Source: Aneurinibacillus terranovensis DSM 18919 (GTDB lineage Bacteria; Bacillota; Bacilli; Aneurinibacillales; Aneurinibacillaceae). Taken from it: a stretch of DNA of 56,657 bases. The position numbers and the translations under genes were made by a program. Location of the stretch: NCBI RefSeq assembly GCF_000430625.1, contig NZ_KE387173.1, positions 133,089 to 189,745 of the forward strand, given 5' to 3'. Below are positions 2,991-26,856 of this stretch, piece after piece (positions within the stretch are counted from its first letter, which is position 1; each line of letters begins with the position of its first letter). Below the pieces are notes generated by a model. It was given only the letters and a program-made list of their open reading frames with translations. It ran no database searches and was not told the DNA's origin.

Positions 2991-4332
2991 ATGATAGAAC
3001 ATAAACAACAAAAGAATCAACTCCCTAAAGAAATTCAGCCAGCTTTTACGCAGTTGAAAGTACTACAACACTTGAAAACCGCAGGTTTTAAAAAGCGATT
3101 TGGCTTTTCTTATTCGTATCTATTTCAACTTGTCTTTGTGCTCTTGTTTCACCATAAAAACTGGTTTCGTATGCTGGAAAGTGACCGGGGAGACTCTTTT
3201 CCTGGCAAAGATGCTGTCTATCGATTTTTGAACCAGGCGAGACATCCATGGCGTCGCTTTCTCACTTTGTTAAGCACTTTTACGGTGGAGAAGGTTCGCC
3301 CTTTGACTTCAACCCAACGTGTAACGGCTTTTATTGTCGATGATTCCATGTTTGAACGGAATCGAAGCAAGGCGGTCGAACTGCTTGCGCGGTTCAAGGA
3401 TCATGCGACGGGCTGTTACTACAAGGGGTATCGCATGTTGACGCTAGGTTGGTCCGACGGCCATACCTTCATCCCCTGTGGATTTCTCTTTACTCAGTTC
3501 CCTCAAGTCACAAATCAATGGCATTACCGAAGGGATCGATAAGCGAACATCCGGCTACAAACGGCGAGAGGAGGCCTTACGACCCGCTCCAGAATTGATC
3601 CCTGAGATGCTTGATCGTGCCATGAAAGCAGGCATGACTGCTTCCCACGTACTCATGGACAGTTGGTTTACGCATGCCCCCCTCGTGAAGGAAGTCGTCG
3701 AAAGAGGACTCCATGTCATCGGCATGGTCAAAGCGGACAATAAACGTTACCAGGTAGGGATCAAAAGTCTTTCGTTACAGGAGCTCTACTACGCGGCAAC
3801 GCCGATTAAAGGGAAAACGAAAGGGTTCCTCCGTTCCATCCGTACTACATTAGCAGGGGTCCCGATTACGATGGTGTTTGTCCGCCATCGTTCAAAGAAA
3901 AAAGAATGGCTGGCTATTTTGTGCACAGATCTTTCCTTAACGGAAGAAGAAATCATTCAAACCTACGGTATCCGTTGGGATATTGAGGTTTTCTTTAAGT
4001 GCACAAAATCCTTGCTTCGTCTACAAAAGGAGTTTCAGGGGCGTTCTTACGACCTGCTCATTAGTCATACAACGATTGTATTTTCCCGCTACATTCTACT
4101 GGCCTGGCAGCATCGTCAAAGTACGGATCAGCGTTCGTTGGGCGGTTTATTTCTTGCGCTTTGCGATGAAGTTTGCGAACTGGATTGGGCGATTGCGTTA
4201 CATCACACTGATATTGCGAGAAAGTCAAATAAGAAAATCGCGAAATTAATTCAAAGTCAACTCCAGCAATGGATTTCTGGTTTACCTAGCTACATCAAGG
4301 CTTATTTGCCGAATGTAAGCTGCGAAAGTTGA
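2991..4332 (+). pseudogene. IS4-family transposase, frameshifted
   Basis: Two overlapping frames together make one IS4-type DDE transposase. The first (from ATG 2991, after an AGAGGTG-type ribosome site) contains the first catalytic region (FIVDDSMFERNRSKA) and ends at 3542. The second (readable from about 3478) contains the second Asp (HVLMDSWF) and the IS4-hallmark YREK motif in YGIRWDIEVFFKCTK, with the E of the DDE triad. Continuity is restored by skipping one T in the ATTT run at 3482-3485 (IPCG/FSLLSS). No obvious slippery heptamer is present, so I read this as a 1-bp insertion inactivating the gene, not as programmed frameshifting. Confidence 0.85.
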
Positions 4333-4334: not shown

Positions 4335-4440
4335 CATTTAGAATTAAAAAAATTTGGATATTATTTTAGTCAGTCTTGTTCAATAAACGCTTCGGGTTAC
4401 TTTAAGAACATTTCTTCACAATCTAAAGCAATCATTTCTT

Positions 4441-4989
4441 TTACTCCAAATTCCTATCTAATAACGCCCCTGTTTGTTCTGCTATGACACGAGCCGGCAA
4501 AGGCATACCATTTTTAAACCACCATTCCACTGCACCTACGATCGCTGAGCCAAAAAATTGAAGAATCACATCTTCATTAAAACCGCCATTTTTTCCTTTT
4601 GTTACATCCACTTCAGCTTTATACTCTTCGATGATCAAATCAAGAAACCGACTACGAAAATAAGGAGCCCCCTTACTTGCCAACATTGTTGAAAAGAATA
4701 AATAATGACGTTCAAAATATTCGAACCATACGTAATTTCCTTCTTGAAACGTCATTTCAGAAGCTGATCGGCAAAGTTCTCGGAGATTGTTTATATGTTC
4801 TTCAATCATCTTATCCAGCAGATCATATTTATCCGTGTAATGAAGATAGATGGTTCCTCGATTAACATTTGCTCTGTCTGCAATATCCTGAATCGTAATG
4901 TCGTCAAAATTTTTTTCAGACATCAGTTCAGTTACGGCATTTTTTATCGCTTCTTGGCTTTTGGCTATTCTTCGATCTACTTTAGACAA
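4441..4989 (-). CDS. TetR/AcrR-family transcriptional regulator
   Basis: The product is a ligand-responsive repressor of about 182 residues. The N-terminal helix-turn-helix is clear (ITIQDIADRANVNRGTIYLH), followed by a helical ligand-binding domain ending in EWWFKNGMPLPARVIAEQ. I choose the TTG at 4989 because GGTGAG sits six bases upstream; an in-frame ATG at 5031 has no good ribosome site and lies against the operator. The gene is divergent from the CMD-SDR-cupin genes, and the spacer holds a 22-bp palindrome, so this protein most likely represses both itself and that operon. The inducing ligand is unknown. Confidence 0.9.
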   Translation of the reverse strand: MSKVDRRIAKSQEAIKNAVTELMSEKNFDDITIQDIADRANVNRGTIYLHYTDKYDLLDKMIEEHINNLRELCRSASEMTFQEGNYVWFEYFERHYLFFSTMLASKGAPYFRSRFLDLIIEEYKAEVDVTKGKNGGFNEDVILQFFGSAIVGAVEWWFKNGMPLPARVIAEQTGALLDRNLE

Positions 4990-5034
4990 TTGAATCTCAC
5001 CAATCTTTCTATAGATAATCAACAATTTCAATTG

Positions 5035-5056
5035 ATTTGTTGAATAGTCAACAAAT
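5035..5056. promoter_or_regulatory. 22-bp palindromic operator in the tetR/CMD divergent spacer
   Basis: Perfect 9-base arms ATTTGTTGA and TCAACAAAT are separated by ATAG. The palindrome overlaps the region just upstream of the tetR ribosome site and precedes the promoter of the divergent operon. A second, weaker TTGA-TAAA-TCAA dyad lies at 5113-5124, just after the expected transcription start of the rightward operon. Both fit binding by the adjacent TetR-family dimer. Confidence 0.75.
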
Positions 5057-5072
5057 TGCGTTCATTTAACCA

Positions 5073-5100
5073 TTGAAAGCATCCTGTTTCTTTTTATAAT
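5073..5100 (+). promoter_or_regulatory. sigma-A type promoter of the CMD-SDR operon
   Basis: TTGAAA (5073-5078), 16 bases, TATAAT (5095-5100). Transcription would start near 5107, immediately before the TTGATAAATCAA dyad and about 45 bases before the first gene. Confidence 0.7.
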
Positions 5101-5152
5101 TATAAACAGGTGTTGATAAATCAATCAATATTCATTTTTTGGAGGTGAACGT

Positions 5153-5908
5153 ATGAACCGTGTTGAAAAGAGCAAGGAAAAATACAAACAGCTATTCGGC
5201 GATGGAGTACCTGCCGCATACGCTACCGACCCTGATTTTCAGGACATCCTGAGCCGTTTCATTTTTGGGGAAGTATTTTATCAAGGTAATCTGGACGATA
5301 AGCAACGTGAGTTGATTACTCTGGTCGTGCTTACTACCACCCAGACGTTGCCTCAACTTAAAGCACACGTTGGTGCGGCACTGAATGTTGGTCTAACACC
5401 TGTAGAAATCAAAGAAGCTGTTTACCAGTGTGCTCCATACATTGGATTCCCAAAAACGTTAAGTGCAATCAATGAAGTCAACGATGTTTTCAAAACAAAG
5501 AATATCCCTTTACCGATTGAAAGTCAGAAGACTGTAGATGAAGATAGTCGTTTTCAAAAAGGTCTTGCAACTCAAGTAGAGATTTTTGGAGATGTGATTA
5601 AAAAAATGCAGGAGAGTGCTCCATCAAATCAAAAGCATATACAGGATTATCTTTCCTCTTTTTGTTTTGGAGACTTCTACACCCGTTCCGGTCTCGATTT
5701 AAAGACAAGGGAGTTGCTGACACTCTGTATCGTGAGTAGCCTGGGCGGTGCTGAAGGGCAAGTGAAGGCACATGTGCAAGGTAACAAAAATGTGGGCAAT
5801 GACAAGGAAACATTGATCACCGCCATCACCCACTGCCTCCCATATATGGGCTTTCCGAGAACACTGAACGCATTAGCTTGCATTAATGAAATTTTTCCTG
5901 AAAATTAA
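5153..5908 (+). CDS. carboxymuconolactone decarboxylase family protein with two CMD domains
   Basis: This 251-residue protein has two tandem CMD repeats, about residues 30-115 and 160-245. Each has the family pattern of a helix rich in ...RELITLVVL..., a QLKAHV/QVKAHV histidine segment, and a C-terminal ...YIGFPKTL.../...YMGFPRTL... helix. The CxxC of the AhpD branch is absent, so a peroxidase role is unlikely. The start has a strong GGAGGTGA site. It is first in a probable operon with a short-chain dehydrogenase six to eighteen bases downstream, and both are under the divergent TetR regulator. The substrate is unknown; detoxification or oxidation of an aromatic or carbonyl compound is a guess from the neighbours. 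Confidence 0.85.
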   Translation: MNRVEKSKEKYKQLFGDGVPAAYATDPDFQDILSRFIFGEVFYQGNLDDKQRELITLVVLTTTQTLPQLKAHVGAALNVGLTPVEIKEAVYQCAPYIGFPKTLSAINEVNDVFKTKNIPLPIESQKTVDEDSRFQKGLATQVEIFGDVIKKMQESAPSNQKHIQDYLSSFCFGDFYTRSGLDLKTRELLTLCIVSSLGGAEGQVKAHVQGNKNVGNDKETLITAITHCLPYMGFPRTLNALACINEIFPEN

Positions 5909-7276: not shown

Positions 7277-8917
7277 TTATCCTGCACAGCAGGATAGTTT
7301 TGATACATCTTTATTAAAAGTTAACGCCGCCAATTTCAACCCTTCCGCCATGGTCAAATACGGTGCAAAACTTTCTCTTATATCTTCAATGGTTAATCCG
7401 AATTTCACTGCCAATGTGCCTGCGTAAATAACATCACCTGCATTTTCAGCAACCACATGAACCCCTAAAACTTTCAAGGTGCGGGCATCCGCAACCAGTT
7501 TGAAAATACCGGTGGTTTCCCGATTTACGATGGCTCTTGGCACAGCACTTAACGGAAGAACCGATGTTATTACCTCCAACCCTTTTTCTTTTGCCTGTGT
7601 TTCGGTAAGACCTACGGTTGCAATCGAAGGATTTGTAAATGTGACACCCGGAACGGATTCGAGGTTTGCCTTTCGGTTAGCTCCTCCGACGGCGTTATCT
7701 GCCGCAATCCCGCCTTCATAAGCGGCGACATAAACAAATTGCGGACCTAATGTAACATCTCCTGCGGCATACACCCTTGGATTGCTTGTACACAAATACT
7801 CGTCAACGACAACTTCACCACGAGAACCCACCTGAATGCCCGCCGCTTCCAGATGGAGAGCTTCGGTATTTGGTTTTCGCCCCGTTGCAATAAGTAATTC
7901 ATCGGCTTCAATCACTTTATGTTTTCCATTTACCGTTACATAAACTTGTTTGATGTCCCCATGTTGTTCAATGCGTTCGTATGTTGCCCCGGTCACCAGG
8001 TTGATCCCTTGTTCGTTTAATGCTTGCTTGACTACATCTGCAATTTCGGGATCATATTTGCGTAAAAAGGTATCTCCTCGTTGTAAAATGGTCACTTCCG
8101 TTCCCAAGTTGTTAAAAAGGTTTCCTAACTCCAGTCCGATAAAACCTGCACCAATCACGACAAGACGCTTCGGAAGCCTCTTTCGTTCAAGCAATGTGGT
8201 GCTTGTTACATAGTCGACATCCTTTAACCCTGGGATATCCGGAATGTCAGGTGAAGCTCCCGTAGCAATCAAAAAGCGTTTTGCGGTCAGTTGGCGACCA
8301 CCGACCTCTACTGTTTTCTCATCGATAAACTTTGCCTCGCCACGGATCAACTCAAAACCATAGTCCTCAATGAGATCTACATATTTTTGCTCACGAAGTT
8401 GGCTAACAAGTTCATTTTTGTACTTGATCAACGAAGCCAAATCCACATCACCAGCGGATGTATGTAATCCGATAAACGGATTTGTTTTCGCCAGATGATG
8501 AATCTCTCCCGCCCGCAAAAGGGTTTTCGATGGGACACAGCCAATATTGACACAGGTTCCGCCAACGGTTCCACGTTCAATCATGGCGACTTTTGCACCA
8601 TATTCGACCGCTTTAATCGCAGAAGCAAAAGCCGCCCCTCCCGACCCAATGATCAGGTAATCGTATTCGCCTTCATCGCCTAAAACCACTTTTTGTAGCG
8701 GTTGGATCTCTTGTACTTCTCCAGGCTGATACTTTGCTTCACGAATCGCTTCTTGTGCTTTTGTTACGTCAACGTCATCCGGAAGTTCGAATGTTGCCTC
8801 CCCATGCCGGTAACTTGCGTTGATATGGACGGCTCCTATATTCCTTAATGCCGTGGCAATATGTTCTTCGCATCCCGTACACGTCATGCCTTGAACGATT
8901 AGTCGATACCTTTTCAA
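7277..8917 (-). CDS. merA: mercury(II) reductase
   Basis: This 546-residue flavoprotein reduces Hg(II) to volatile Hg(0) with NADPH. One N-terminal heavy-metal-associated domain carries GMTCTGC (Cys13, Cys16). The FAD motif follows ([10 protein letters not shown]), then the redox-active [12 protein letters not shown] (Cys122, Cys127), an NAD(P) motif ([12 protein letters not shown]) and the C-terminal vicinal pair Cys543-Cys544, which hands Hg to the active site. All residues diagnostic for MerA rather than lipoamide dehydrogenase are present. It is the last gene of merR-merE-merA, 13 bases after merE, and is expected to be induced by Hg(II) through MerR. Confidence 0.97.
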
Positions 8918-8930
8918 GCGAAGTCCCCCT

Positions 8931-9173
8931 TCATGATTCTTTCCCCTTTACATCACAACAATGGTCGGTTTGTTCCCGAAACATTTTTCTCCATCCCATA
9001 TACAGAGATAAAGCAAATAACATAGCCAAAATGACAAAAGTAGCCGTTTGAAACTGTGCGATATATGAACCAATTGCTGTTCCTGCCAACAATGGAATCA
9101 GTAAAACCAAATGACAAGGACAGGTTACCAAAGCAACAAGAAACCAGCCAACACCTTTCATTGTCTCTTTCAT
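8931..9173 (-). CDS. merE: MerE-like mercury transport membrane protein
   Basis: This small inner-membrane protein of about 80 residues has two hydrophobic helices. The first contains the signature [16 protein letters not shown], whose CPC pair and following His resemble the metal-handling motif of MerE of Tn501-type operons. A charged C-terminus ends in CC plus lysines. I start at ATG 9173 (MKETMKGVG) because AGAGGTG lies just upstream; a longer frame to 9215 would overlap merR. It probably moves Hg(II), or organomercury, into the cytoplasm for MerA. No merT, merP or merB is present, so this is the only candidate importer in the operon. Confidence 0.85.
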
Positions 9174-9181
9174 CATCACCT

Positions 9182-9580
9182 CTATTTTTCCATTAACGTT
9201 TCGATGATAGGACATTCAAACATCTCTTTGTTTTCAGGACACTTTTCCTTTAAGCTAATGAGCATTCGTTCAATTTTTTTGAGATCGTCAATTTTACTTT
9301 GAATCTCCCGAAGTTTTAAATCAGTGAAATCGTACATATCCTTGCATTTGACTTCATCCCGATCTACAACACCCAACAACTTATCAATTTCTTGAAGTGT
9401 AAACCCCAAGTCTTGCATCCGTTTAATAAAACCGATCCGTTGCACCATATTCTCTGGATACATACGGTATCCAGAATCAGTACGAGTCGGTTCGGGAATC
9501 AACCCCAACCTTTCGTAATAACGAATGGTTTCTTTATTGACATTGCATTCTTTCGCCAATTGACTAATTCGATACATCAT
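9182..9580 (-). CDS. merR: mercury-responsive MerR regulator
   Basis: This 132-residue activator-repressor has a MerR winged helix-turn-helix (KETIRYYERLGLIPEP) and a long dimerisation helix. The three Hg-binding cysteines are at 79, 114 and 123, matching the positions known in the Bacillus RC607 protein. I start at ATG 9580 (MMYRIS), seven bases after GGGTGA; a longer frame to 9631 would read through the promoter. As in Gram-positive mer operons, merR is the first gene and is co-transcribed with merE and merA from one promoter that it controls. Confidence 0.95.
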   Translation of the reverse strand: MMYRISQLAKECNVNKETIRYYERLGLIPEPTRTDSGYRMYPENMVQRIGFIKRMQDLGFTLQEIDKLLGVVDRDEVKCKDMYDFTDLKLREIQSKIDDLKKIERMLISLKEKCPENKEMFECPIIETLMEK

Positions 9581-9599
9581 GTGGTGATCACCCATTCTC

Positions 9600-9631
9600 A
9601 TTATAAACCCTGTACCATAGTACATGGTCAA
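9600..9631 (-). promoter_or_regulatory. mer promoter and MerR operator
   Basis: On the minus strand TTGACC (9631-9626) and TATAAT (9605-9600) are separated by 20 bases, the over-long spacer typical of MerR-activated promoters. Inside it (9607-9628) is a 22-base dyad whose core is TGTAC-TATG-GTACA and whose outer ACC/GGT bases also pair, with one mismatched pair between. MerR would sit on the spacer and untwist it when Hg(II) binds. Confidence 0.92.
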
Positions 9632-10620
9632 TCATTAGCTTATATACTTTCATCCGAAAAATTTAACCACATGATAAATTAAGGCAACAAATCACTATAT
9701 ACCTATCCCCTTTTCCCAATGCCATTCATTTATCAAATATCGCAGAATCAACTTTTGAAATCCCTACTATGTGCATTGCAAAAAAAGTCTGCCTAAAACC
9801 GCCCCATTCCCACGATCTCTCTCACGCCTTGTCCCACATGGCTTCTCCGCTCTCTACACCTTATCCACTTTCTCGCTCTAAATAAGTAAAGTGTGCCTAA
9901 GAATCAGGGGACAACCAGGAGCAGAACGGGGAAAATCGGGGGAAAAAATCGGGAAAAAGCTTGATATGGCGGGATTTATAAGGGCTTAGTGTATTAGCAA
10001 AATTAAATCGTTCCCTGCCTTCTCTTCCCCCACACCCCTCCATCCCTTGTCCCTGCATTCTCTGATTTTTCCATTTTTTGTCGCCAAATAGAATCCTTCC
10101 CTGTATCCCCCCTCCCTTACCCCTGTTTTACCCTACTCCCTGCTTTTTTAGGAAAATAAAGTTGTTCCCTGGAAGGCAGGAAAACAGGGGCGAGGGTTAA
10201 GGGGATTCGGGTCCATTTTCATGCTTTTTCTCCCGCTATTCTCAATCTTTTCCTCCCATTTCCCTTCCCCTTGACCCCCTCTACATCCCTGCTGTATCGG
10301 GCTTTCGCCCCCATTCCCTTACTCCTTAATCCTGCATTTACCCCTGCTTTTTCTCCCGCTTTAAAATAAAAGACACGAGCAAAATTCAGGATTTTAACCC
10401 GATTTTCACTCGTGTTCAGGGAACAGTTTTATTTACCCAGGGAAGGATTATATTTTACTGGAGTACATTTATTTTTGACGGATACATAAAAGGGTAAAGG
10501 GGGAAGGGATATAGGGGGAACCTCCACCCGTTCTCTTTTTTGTAGAAAACCCACTACAGATTGTTTCCCACATTATTTGTTAAACTTATGATTAGGTATC
10601 AAATCACAGGACATTTGAGG
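9632..10620. other. non-coding region of about 990 bp with pyrimidine-rich tracts and extensive inverted repeats
   Basis: No convincing gene is visible between the mer promoter and the ATPase. From about 10010 to 10360 the plus strand is strongly pyrimidine-rich, with recurrent CCCTG, CCCGC and CCCCT words. From about 9905 to 9985 it is purine-rich with GGGGAAAATCGGGGG-like words. Complementary segments are numerous, for example CGGGAAAAAGC (9950-9960) against GCTTTTTCTCCCG near 10224 and 10348, and ACACGAG/CTCGTGT around 10372-10415. A structured RNA, an untranslated regulatory region or a non-autonomous mobile element are all possible. No known RNA family is recognised. Confidence 0.7.
10092..10449. 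repeat. nested inverted-repeat element A
   Basis: The outer arms are AATCCTTCCCTG (10092-10103) and its perfect complement at 10438-10449. The inner arms are AAATAAAGTTGTTCCCTG (10154-10171) and the complement of AAATAAAACTGTTCCCTG (10417-10434), 16 of 18 matching. Further stems inside are CCCCTGTTTT (10120-10129) with AAAACAGGGG (10181-10190), and GGGTTAAGGGG (10194-10204) with CCCCTTGACCC (10267-10277). No coding potential and no clear target duplication are seen. The arms resemble those of the element at 13939-14112. Confidence 0.65.
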
Positions 10621-25044: not shown

Positions 25045-25335
25045 CTACTCCATTACCGCCGGCACTTTAAATTGCCCGTCTTCTTCATCCGGCGCATTGC
25101 GCAGGGCAAGCTCGCGATTGACAGACGGGCGTGCCTCGTCCTCGCGCACCACGTTGTACACATCCAGCACATGGCTGGTCGGCGCGATATTCGATGTATC
25201 CAGTTCATTCAGCTTTCCGGCAAATTCGAGAATCGCGTTCAATTGTTCCGTATATTTCACCGCTTCCTCTTCCGTCAGATTCAAGCGGGCAAGCTTCGCT
25301 ACATACTCCACTTCCGTGCGGGAAATTGCACTCAT
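25045..25335 (-). CDS. gatC: Asp-tRNA(Asn)/Glu-tRNA(Gln) amidotransferase subunit C
   Basis: This 96-residue subunit wraps the GatA-GatB interface and stabilises the complex. The family opening ISRTEVEYVAKLARLNLTEEE and the closing loop ...LALRNAPDEEDGQFKVPAVME are intact. An AGGAGGTG site precedes ATG 25335. It is the first gene of the operon. No T-box or other leader structure was seen upstream. Confidence 0.95.
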   Translation of the reverse strand: MSAISRTEVEYVAKLARLNLTEEEAVKYTEQLNAILEFAGKLNELDTSNIAPTSHVLDVYNVVREDEARPSVNRELALRNAPDEEDGQFKVPAVME

Positions 25336-25520
25336 CGTTTTACACCTCCTGTTTCCTTCATCACAGACAGATTTATGTCAATATAAATAACATGATACCA
25401 AAGAAGCAAAGGCCTCGCAACTTGAGGAATCTAAGGTGAACCGCGTCAAATATAAAAATTCTATAGTAAAAACAAACCAACACGTTCAAACTAAACACAT
25501 AACTTATTCCTACATACGGT

Positions 25521-25631
25521 ATGGTGACTGTTTATGAGGATAACACCGTTAACGCTTGGCCTCAAGTAAATACACCTATCGATATTGATGTAGGGCATGG
25601 TGGAATTGACGGAGGAGATAGACATGACTAA
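25521..25631 (+). pseudogene. vestigial N-acetylmuramoyl-L-alanine amidase (Amidase_3) N-terminus
   Basis: A 36-codon frame from ATG 25521 ends at TAA 25629-25631 and contains PIDIDVGHGGIDGGD, close to the first zinc-binding motif of Amidase_3 enzymes such as CwlD (DPGHGGxDGG), with Pro replaced by Val. Nothing of the rest of the amidase is present. The frame overlaps the start of the deacetylase gene by eight bases in a different frame, and its last codons double as the deacetylase ribosome site. It may be a remnant of an upstream amidase gene or a short coupling ORF. Confidence 0.5.
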
Positions 25632-26379
25632 GTTGATTAAACACGCTATTCTAATCGGTCTTTTACTGCACTCTTTTGGGATGAACCAGAAAGTTGCAGA
25701 GGCGGCCATTAAAAACCGGGCATATTGGGAAGCAAAGGGAGATATTATTTGGGAAATAAATACAAAGGATAAAGTGATCGCTCTGACGTTTGACGATGGG
25801 CCTGATCCTCAATACACCCAACAAATACTGGATTTATTAGATAAATATGAGGCGAAAGGGACTTTTTTTGTGATCGGCAGCAAGGCCGAAAGCAATGCTT
25901 CACTTATTAAAGAAATGAAACAAAAAGGGCACGAAATTGCCAATCATACGTACCATCATCCGAATATGCGCACCATTAAGCAATTTACTTTACTAAGAGA
26001 AATCAATGATACTGATAATACTATTCATGCCATTATCGGTACCTATCCCGCTCTCTTCCGCCCACCAGGCGGGACATACAATGATAAAGTAGTCGAAGCC
26101 GCAAAAACCGGAAATCATTTGGTGGTGATGTGGTCATGGACACAGGATACGAAGGACTGGCGAAGTCCCGGTGTTCAAAAAATCGTAGACAAAGTATGTA
26201 AGAACGCTAAACCCGGAAACATTGTCTTGTTTCACGATTCAGGTGGAGATCGATCTCAAACAGTCAAAGCCCTGGAAATCATTTTAGATAAGTTATCGAA
26301 AGAAGGATACCGGTTTGCTACGGTTTCACAGATGATTTCCTTCCAAAACAAAAAGGTCGCTGCCTCTACCGGAAAGTAA
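25624..26379 (+). CDS. secreted polysaccharide deacetylase
   Basis: This NodB-domain carbohydrate esterase of about 251 residues probably removes acetyl groups from peptidoglycan or chitin-like sugars outside the cell. An N-terminal signal (about 1-28, ending near AEAA) is followed by the motifs TFDDGPD (Asp57, Asp58), the zinc pair His108/His112 (NHTYHH), RPPGG and a C-terminal FHDS, so the active site is complete. ATG 25624 has GGAGGAG six bases upstream. The frame extending to 25597 would put the ribosome site inside the gene. An amidase vestige lies immediately upstream. Confidence 0.92.
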   Translation: MTKLIKHAILIGLLLHSFGMNQKVAEAAIKNRAYWEAKGDIIWEINTKDKVIALTFDDGPDPQYTQQILDLLDKYEAKGTFFVIGSKAESNASLIKEMKQKGHEIANHTYHHPNMRTIKQFTLLREINDTDNTIHAIIGTYPALFRPPGGTYNDKVVEAAKTGNHLVVMWSWTQDTKDWRSPGVQKIVDKVCKNAKPGNIVLFHDSGGDRSQTVKALEIILDKLSKEGYRFATVSQMISFQNKKVAASTGK

Positions 26380-26508: not shown

Positions 26509-26856
26509 TTATACTCCTCTGCCTGTTCTTCCTTGATAATAGTGTACATGTCCATCTGCAACCGAGGTTTCACCATAAAATGCATGTACATGCCCTCCAC
26601 CTGGCAGAGGAATGGCAGGTCCCGTTGTACCCCGGTAAGCATGTACGTGACCATCTGCAAATGTCGTTGTACCTGAATAATAATGAACGTGGTTATCTAT
26701 GCCGCCTGGATTGACAGAAGTATACCCTTCCATAAAGTGCCTGTGTCCACGGGTGATGGTGGTATAGGTCGCATACGGATGTCTGTGCGGAGGCCCCGCT
26801 TTGACCTGCCAATTGATAAACTCAATATCATGCGAATGAGAATGGTTTCCTTCCAT
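26509..26856 (-). CDS. YmaF-family histidine-rich repeat protein
   Basis: This 115-residue protein is rich in His, Gly, Tyr and Thr. It opens with HSHSH and contains four degenerate copies of a unit of the form (D/G)GHVHxYxGxT (NHVHYYSGTTTF, GHVHAYRGTTG, GHVHAFYGETSV, GHVHYYQGRTG), each predicted as a beta strand with an HxH pair. This is the pattern of the Bacillus YmaF family, whose function is unknown; metal binding on a spore or cell surface is plausible from the histidines. No signal peptide is visible. It appears monocistronic. Confidence 0.85.
   Translation of the reverse strand: MEGNHSHSHDIEFINWQVKAGPPHRHPYATYTTITRGHRHFMEGYTSVNPGGIDNHVHYYSGTTTFADGHVHAYRGTTGPAIPLPGGGHVHAFYGETSVADGHVHYYQGRTGRGV

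Follow-up and report, generated by a model that had tools for sequence, protein, structure and literature searches.

A short open frame overlapping a deacetylase gene start in Aneurinibacillus terranovensis is very probably the remnant of a deleted amidase gene

The stretch analyzed here, 56,657 nucleotides from Aneurinibacillus terranovensis DSM 18919 (the window), carries on its plus strand a 36-codon open frame at 25521-25631, which is translated as MVTVYEDNTVNAWPQVNTPIDIDVGHGGIDGGDRHD followed by a stop. The frame is flanked by gatC (25045-25335, minus strand) and by a full-length polysaccharide deacetylase gene of the CE4 type (25624-26379, plus strand; PF01522, E = 1.9e-40). Its TAA (25629-25631) falls within the first codons of the deacetylase, which begins with the ATG at 25624, and stop and start thereby overlap in ATGACTAA (25624-25631), a sequence found in identical form at 1516-1523 of locus L082 in Aneurinibacillus thermoaerophilus L420-91. 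The closest model for the deacetylase is PdaB (TIGR02764), for which it scores 212.1 bits against a cut-off of 237.4; against PdaA (TIGR02884) it reaches 141 bits where the cut-off is 298. A YmaF-family histidine-rich protein is encoded at 26509-26856, convergent with the deacetylase. Farther away in the window, at 2991-4332, a DDE transposase occupies two overlapping frames (2991-3542 and 3478-4332) and is probably a frameshifted insertion element.

The initial annotation described the small frame as carrying the first zinc motif of Amidase_3 and as overlapping the deacetylase start, and both statements hold. A profile built from the amidases of eight relatives gave the 36-codon frame 28.5 bits, while the runner-up among the 1633 stop-to-stop frames of at least 20 aa that we scored in the window reached 5.7 bits and the maximum over 100 first-order Markov-randomized windows was 12.0 bits. 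When the 36 residues were compared with 61 genomes, the best matches were intact amidases of the same family, the top one being that of genome G003 (74% over 27 aa, E = 4.3e-6; 49% over a longer alignment of 45 aa); identity to the intact amidases of G003, G005 and G007 was 74-80% over 20-27 aa. It could be argued that an intergenic frame simply came to resemble a glycine-rich zinc motif, given that the motif is short and that Pfam returned no match to any family at E <= 1 for the 36 aa, which fall below the curated cut-off for PF01520 membership. We consider a chance resemblance of this kind vanishingly improbable, however, as the score far exceeds anything in the randomized windows, the alignment to the relatives' amidases at the DNA level continues past the zinc motif, and three relatives carry an amidase at exactly this position.

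What remains of the enzyme is little. Compared with Amidase_3 or CwlD-type N-acetylmuramoyl-L-alanine amidases (PF01520, TIGR02883), from which we derive it, the stub has kept only one zinc ligand and some 20-30 residues. Of the zinc ligands and the catalytic glutamate of Amidase_3, the GHGG histidine alone remains, as the stub lacks the LEK, SLHxN and VEMGF-like stretches that come later in the alignment of the relatives. As just one zinc ligand is left, the stub, judged from its sequence, cannot encode an active enzyme. A phage source for the stub was considered and set aside: a search of 50,697 phage records (E <= 10) gave no match for the 36 aa, and the intact G003 amidase matched 19 such records, all at less than 60% identity and none over more than 80% of its length.

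Support for a former amidase gene comes from related genomes. In our family set (the Aneurinibacillus group, 11 genomes including that of the window, G000), three (G003, G005 and G007) have an intact Amidase_3 gene right in front of the orthologous deacetylase gene, the deacetylases being 69, 58 and 58% identical to that of the window. A full amidase gene directly upstream of the deacetylase, for which the initial annotation had suggested looking, is thus present in relatives. Its other suggestion, an amidase-deacetylase fusion, found no counterpart among the three intact pairs, in all of which the genes are separate. Scanning 20 other deacetylase loci with eight amidases (E <= 0.01) revealed amidase sequence at four, comprising the three intact pairs and a 3' remnant in A. 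thermoaerophilus. In six further family genomes the amidase and deacetylase are apart or, for G004, no close deacetylase was found, and a search for deacetylase traces beside six solo-amidase loci gave nothing at E < 0.025. We also saw no adjacent pair in 140 genomes outside the family when the listed positions were read by eye (thresholds E = 1e-25 and 1e-55).

The amidase itself is widespread in the group, as each of the 10 other family genomes has one that matches the G003 amidase (best E <= 1.9e-50). With the stub as query (E <= 0.02), the matches in nine family genomes fell within amidase frames 189-306 aa long and A. thermoaerophilus (G008) gave no match; the 36-codon frame as such was found in none of the 10, so there is no sign of the conservation that the initial annotation had asked about. 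Two of the amidase loci deserve a comment of their own. In G002 (L056, 7850-8640) a frameshift near the C-terminus splits the gene, which reflects either further decay or a sequencing error. In G001, a member of the same genus, the amidase (L051, 7845-8636) sits within a prophage-like block, with a terminase gene upstream of it (4358-5638) and a Mu-like protease gene as its immediate downstream neighbor (8679-9806).

The location of the stub and deacetylase beside gatC was not seen in relatives. Elsewhere in the family, gatC has a neighbor other than this deacetylase in nine of 10 genomes, which speaks for the stub having come along with the deacetylase; in the tenth, G006, the contig ends 312 bases before gatC and the neighbor is not readable. 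A deacetylase tree of 12 rows gave the window's deacetylase no resolved placement. From the distribution of the pair we infer that the paired state is ancestral, and we put it no more strongly than that because the two genes are not adjacent, or the deacetylase was not found, in six of the 11 family genomes.

The remnant in A. thermoaerophilus (L082) is an instructive parallel. Here a 75-aa frame ahead of the deacetylase is an independent amidase remnant, produced by an in-frame internal deletion, that retains the amidase start and about the last 60 residues and from which the zinc motif is gone. Its last residues are 61-77% identical to the amidases of G003, G005, G006, G007 and G010 and 40-58% identical to those of G001, G004 and G009, and the same genome has a full amidase elsewhere (contig C69, with 59% identity to the G003 amidase). 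The two remnants are alike in lying in the same place before the deacetylase, in ending in the same ATGACTAA overlap and in having lost the enzyme. They differ in what was kept, namely the start, the C-terminal part and a strong Shine-Dalgarno sequence (duplex -13.0) in A. thermoaerophilus versus the N-terminal motif in the window. The retained pieces are complementary and the deletions are therefore independent.

Within the window, the lesions can be followed along the alignment to the relatives' amidases. The ATG at 25521, with which the 36-codon frame opens, is not the ancestral start and is without a Shine-Dalgarno sequence (duplex +3.4 kcal/mol). The start that aligns with those of the relatives (ATGAGG...) is at 25534, in another frame, and is preceded by the remnant amidase Shine-Dalgarno sequence GGTGA at 25523-25527 (duplex -8.3 kcal/mol), which likewise precedes the aligned amidase starts of G005, G007 and G009. 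This start now leads through a shortened signal-peptide region (25534-25569) of 11 codons to a TAA at 25567-25569, 54 nt ahead of the deacetylase ATG. From the start to the conserved VNTP there are 32 nt in the window versus 81 nt in G003, G007 and G009, and it is this net loss of 49 nt that broke the frame and makes it stop after 11 codons; the signal-peptide region aligns poorly and the exact lesions there are uncertain. The best-kept piece of the amidase, identified by both alignment and profile, is VNTPIDIDVGHGGIDGG at 25566-25616, which contains the first zinc histidine and is two codons shorter than in six aligned relatives (a 6-nt in-frame gap). At its end the GGAGG at 25611-25615 marks the apparent deletion junction, serving both as the amidase motif's Gly-Gly codons and as the Shine-Dalgarno sequence of the deacetylase (duplex -10.0). 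From the GGA on, the window aligns with the 3' end of the amidase in A. thermoaerophilus (GGA-x-GAT-x-xAT-GAC-TAA), which suggests that the stop of the stub is the amidase's own.

We therefore are confident, with a small margin of doubt, that the tiny frame is what is left of an N-acetylmuramoyl-L-alanine amidase gene (Amidase_3, CwlD-like) that was once paired with the deacetylase and was lost through an internal deletion and other losses; significant homology, an orthologous position and disabling lesions were all found for such a relic. In the scenario that we favor, the amidase and deacetylase would have formed a two-gene unit before the loss. An in-frame internal deletion of approximately 0.57 kb between two short GGAG-like sites would have removed most of the amidase and brought the zinc motif's Gly-Gly codons together with the deacetylase Shine-Dalgarno GGAGG. 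The size is estimated with G003 as a stand-in for the ancestor; there, the matching GGA sites are separated by 567 nt, a multiple of 3. Further losses would have made the signal-peptide region shorter and put it out of frame, and would have cost the motif the two codons ahead of it. The deacetylase would have retained a ribosome site of its own, and its gene is probably still expressed. Of the origin proposed in the initial annotation, a scar of an amidase either lost by deletion ahead of the deacetylase or fused into it, the deletion accords with the intact pairs and with the complementary 3' remnant of A. thermoaerophilus; the fusion is not supported, since the deacetylase retains its own start and a full domain.

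The deletion could in principle be false, an intact amidase having been collapsed during sequencing or assembly, and the genome is indeed a draft of 98 contigs. This strikes us as very improbable, since the window differs from the relatives at two places apart from the junction, in the net 49-nt, frame-breaking shortening of the start and in the 6-nt gap, and since elsewhere in this genome the stub has no other match at E <= 10 and the G003 amidase none at E <= 1e-25, that is, no full copy was found. The four Amidase_3 matches of the genome sit on other contigs; its other single-domain-sized match is a 245-aa frame on contig C13.

The stub is probably without function, but one property counts against a simple relic, as its residual frame runs uninterrupted to the native stop, for which mild selection could be another explanation. 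The initial annotation had raised the possibility that the stub is kept as a translated leader, with the stop/start overlap feeding ribosomes to the deacetylase. The end of the stub at the apparent native amidase stop, within ATGACTAA, would suit such translational coupling, as would the in-frame 75-aa frame of A. thermoaerophilus with its strong Shine-Dalgarno sequence and the same overlap. For the copy in the window, however, coupling is not supported and we regard it as quite improbable. Our reasoning for this is that: (i) the start of the 36-codon frame lacks a Shine-Dalgarno sequence and that frame is absent from the other family genomes; (ii) the ancestral start, which has one, runs into its stop well short of the deacetylase; (iii) the deacetylase owns a ribosome site, and the predicted RNA fold over its start was no better than that of shuffled sequences (z = -0.08 and 0.81), with the like outcome in L082; (iv) two deletions would both be in frame by chance once in nine cases, so that this agreement is suggestive only; and (v) the intact pairs of G003, G005 and G007 are without such an overlap. 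We nevertheless keep coupling in mind because a second lineage independently has the same stop/start overlap. A broader version of the idea is that the paired amidase has been lost repeatedly in the Aneurinibacillus group by in-frame deletions, since only these keep ribosomes running through ATGACTAA into the deacetylase, such that the stubs, though dead as enzymes, would be retained, at least temporarily, as translation feeders. We think this unlikely. Our preferred reading continues to be that of a decayed gene.

As to what the intact pair may do, there is precedent for an amidase and a deacetylase acting together on peptidoglycan: CwlD and PdaA are described as jointly producing muramic-delta-lactam in the spore cortex (PMC10116595). 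The pair described here resembles that pathway in combining a peptidoglycan amidase with a deacetylase, which stand side by side in three relatives. It differs in that the scanned amidases fall under the CwlD cut-off and the scanned deacetylases under those of PdaA and PdaB. Among NCBIfam models, CwlD (TIGR02883) fits the three intact amidases that were scanned best, at 140-149 bits against a cut-off of 221.55, and the intact G003 amidase scores 132.6 bits with PF01520. In two genomes the intact pair follows gerABC-like germination genes on the same strand, at 6623-12017 of L053 (G005), where the call rests on Pfam, and at 6910-12307 of L054 (G007), where it rests on similar ORF starts; the G007 pair in turn precedes a gene for a YhcN/YlaJ-like lipoprotein (78.2 bits where the cut-off is 99.75). 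Given the likeness to CwlD and PdaB, the gerABC-like neighbors and the YhcN/YlaJ-like gene, we infer that a spore-wall role for the amidase-deacetylase pair is likely.

A sporulation promoter upstream of the stub was also considered. Two overlapping sigma-K-like matches are present at 25480-25506 and 25495-25521, and we do not rely on them. The pattern was chosen after looking; it occurs three times in the whole window versus 1.11 expected, a count reached in 5 of 100 shuffles, and in 12 related upstream stretches its strict form occurred in none and a looser form in two.

A literature search found nothing joining Aneurinibacillus, an amidase and a polysaccharide deacetylase. The stub is genuine but, as traces of gene loss go, fairly ordinary, and it illustrates that a motif spotted by eye in a frame of 36 codons can be a recognizable trace of such an event. 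With respect to annotation, it should be called neither an amidase nor a small protein. Following it up brought out an amidase-deacetylase gene pair in Aneurinibacillus relatives that adjoins gerABC-like germination genes in two of them, and that in other lineages has been split or has decayed, with the deacetylase staying.
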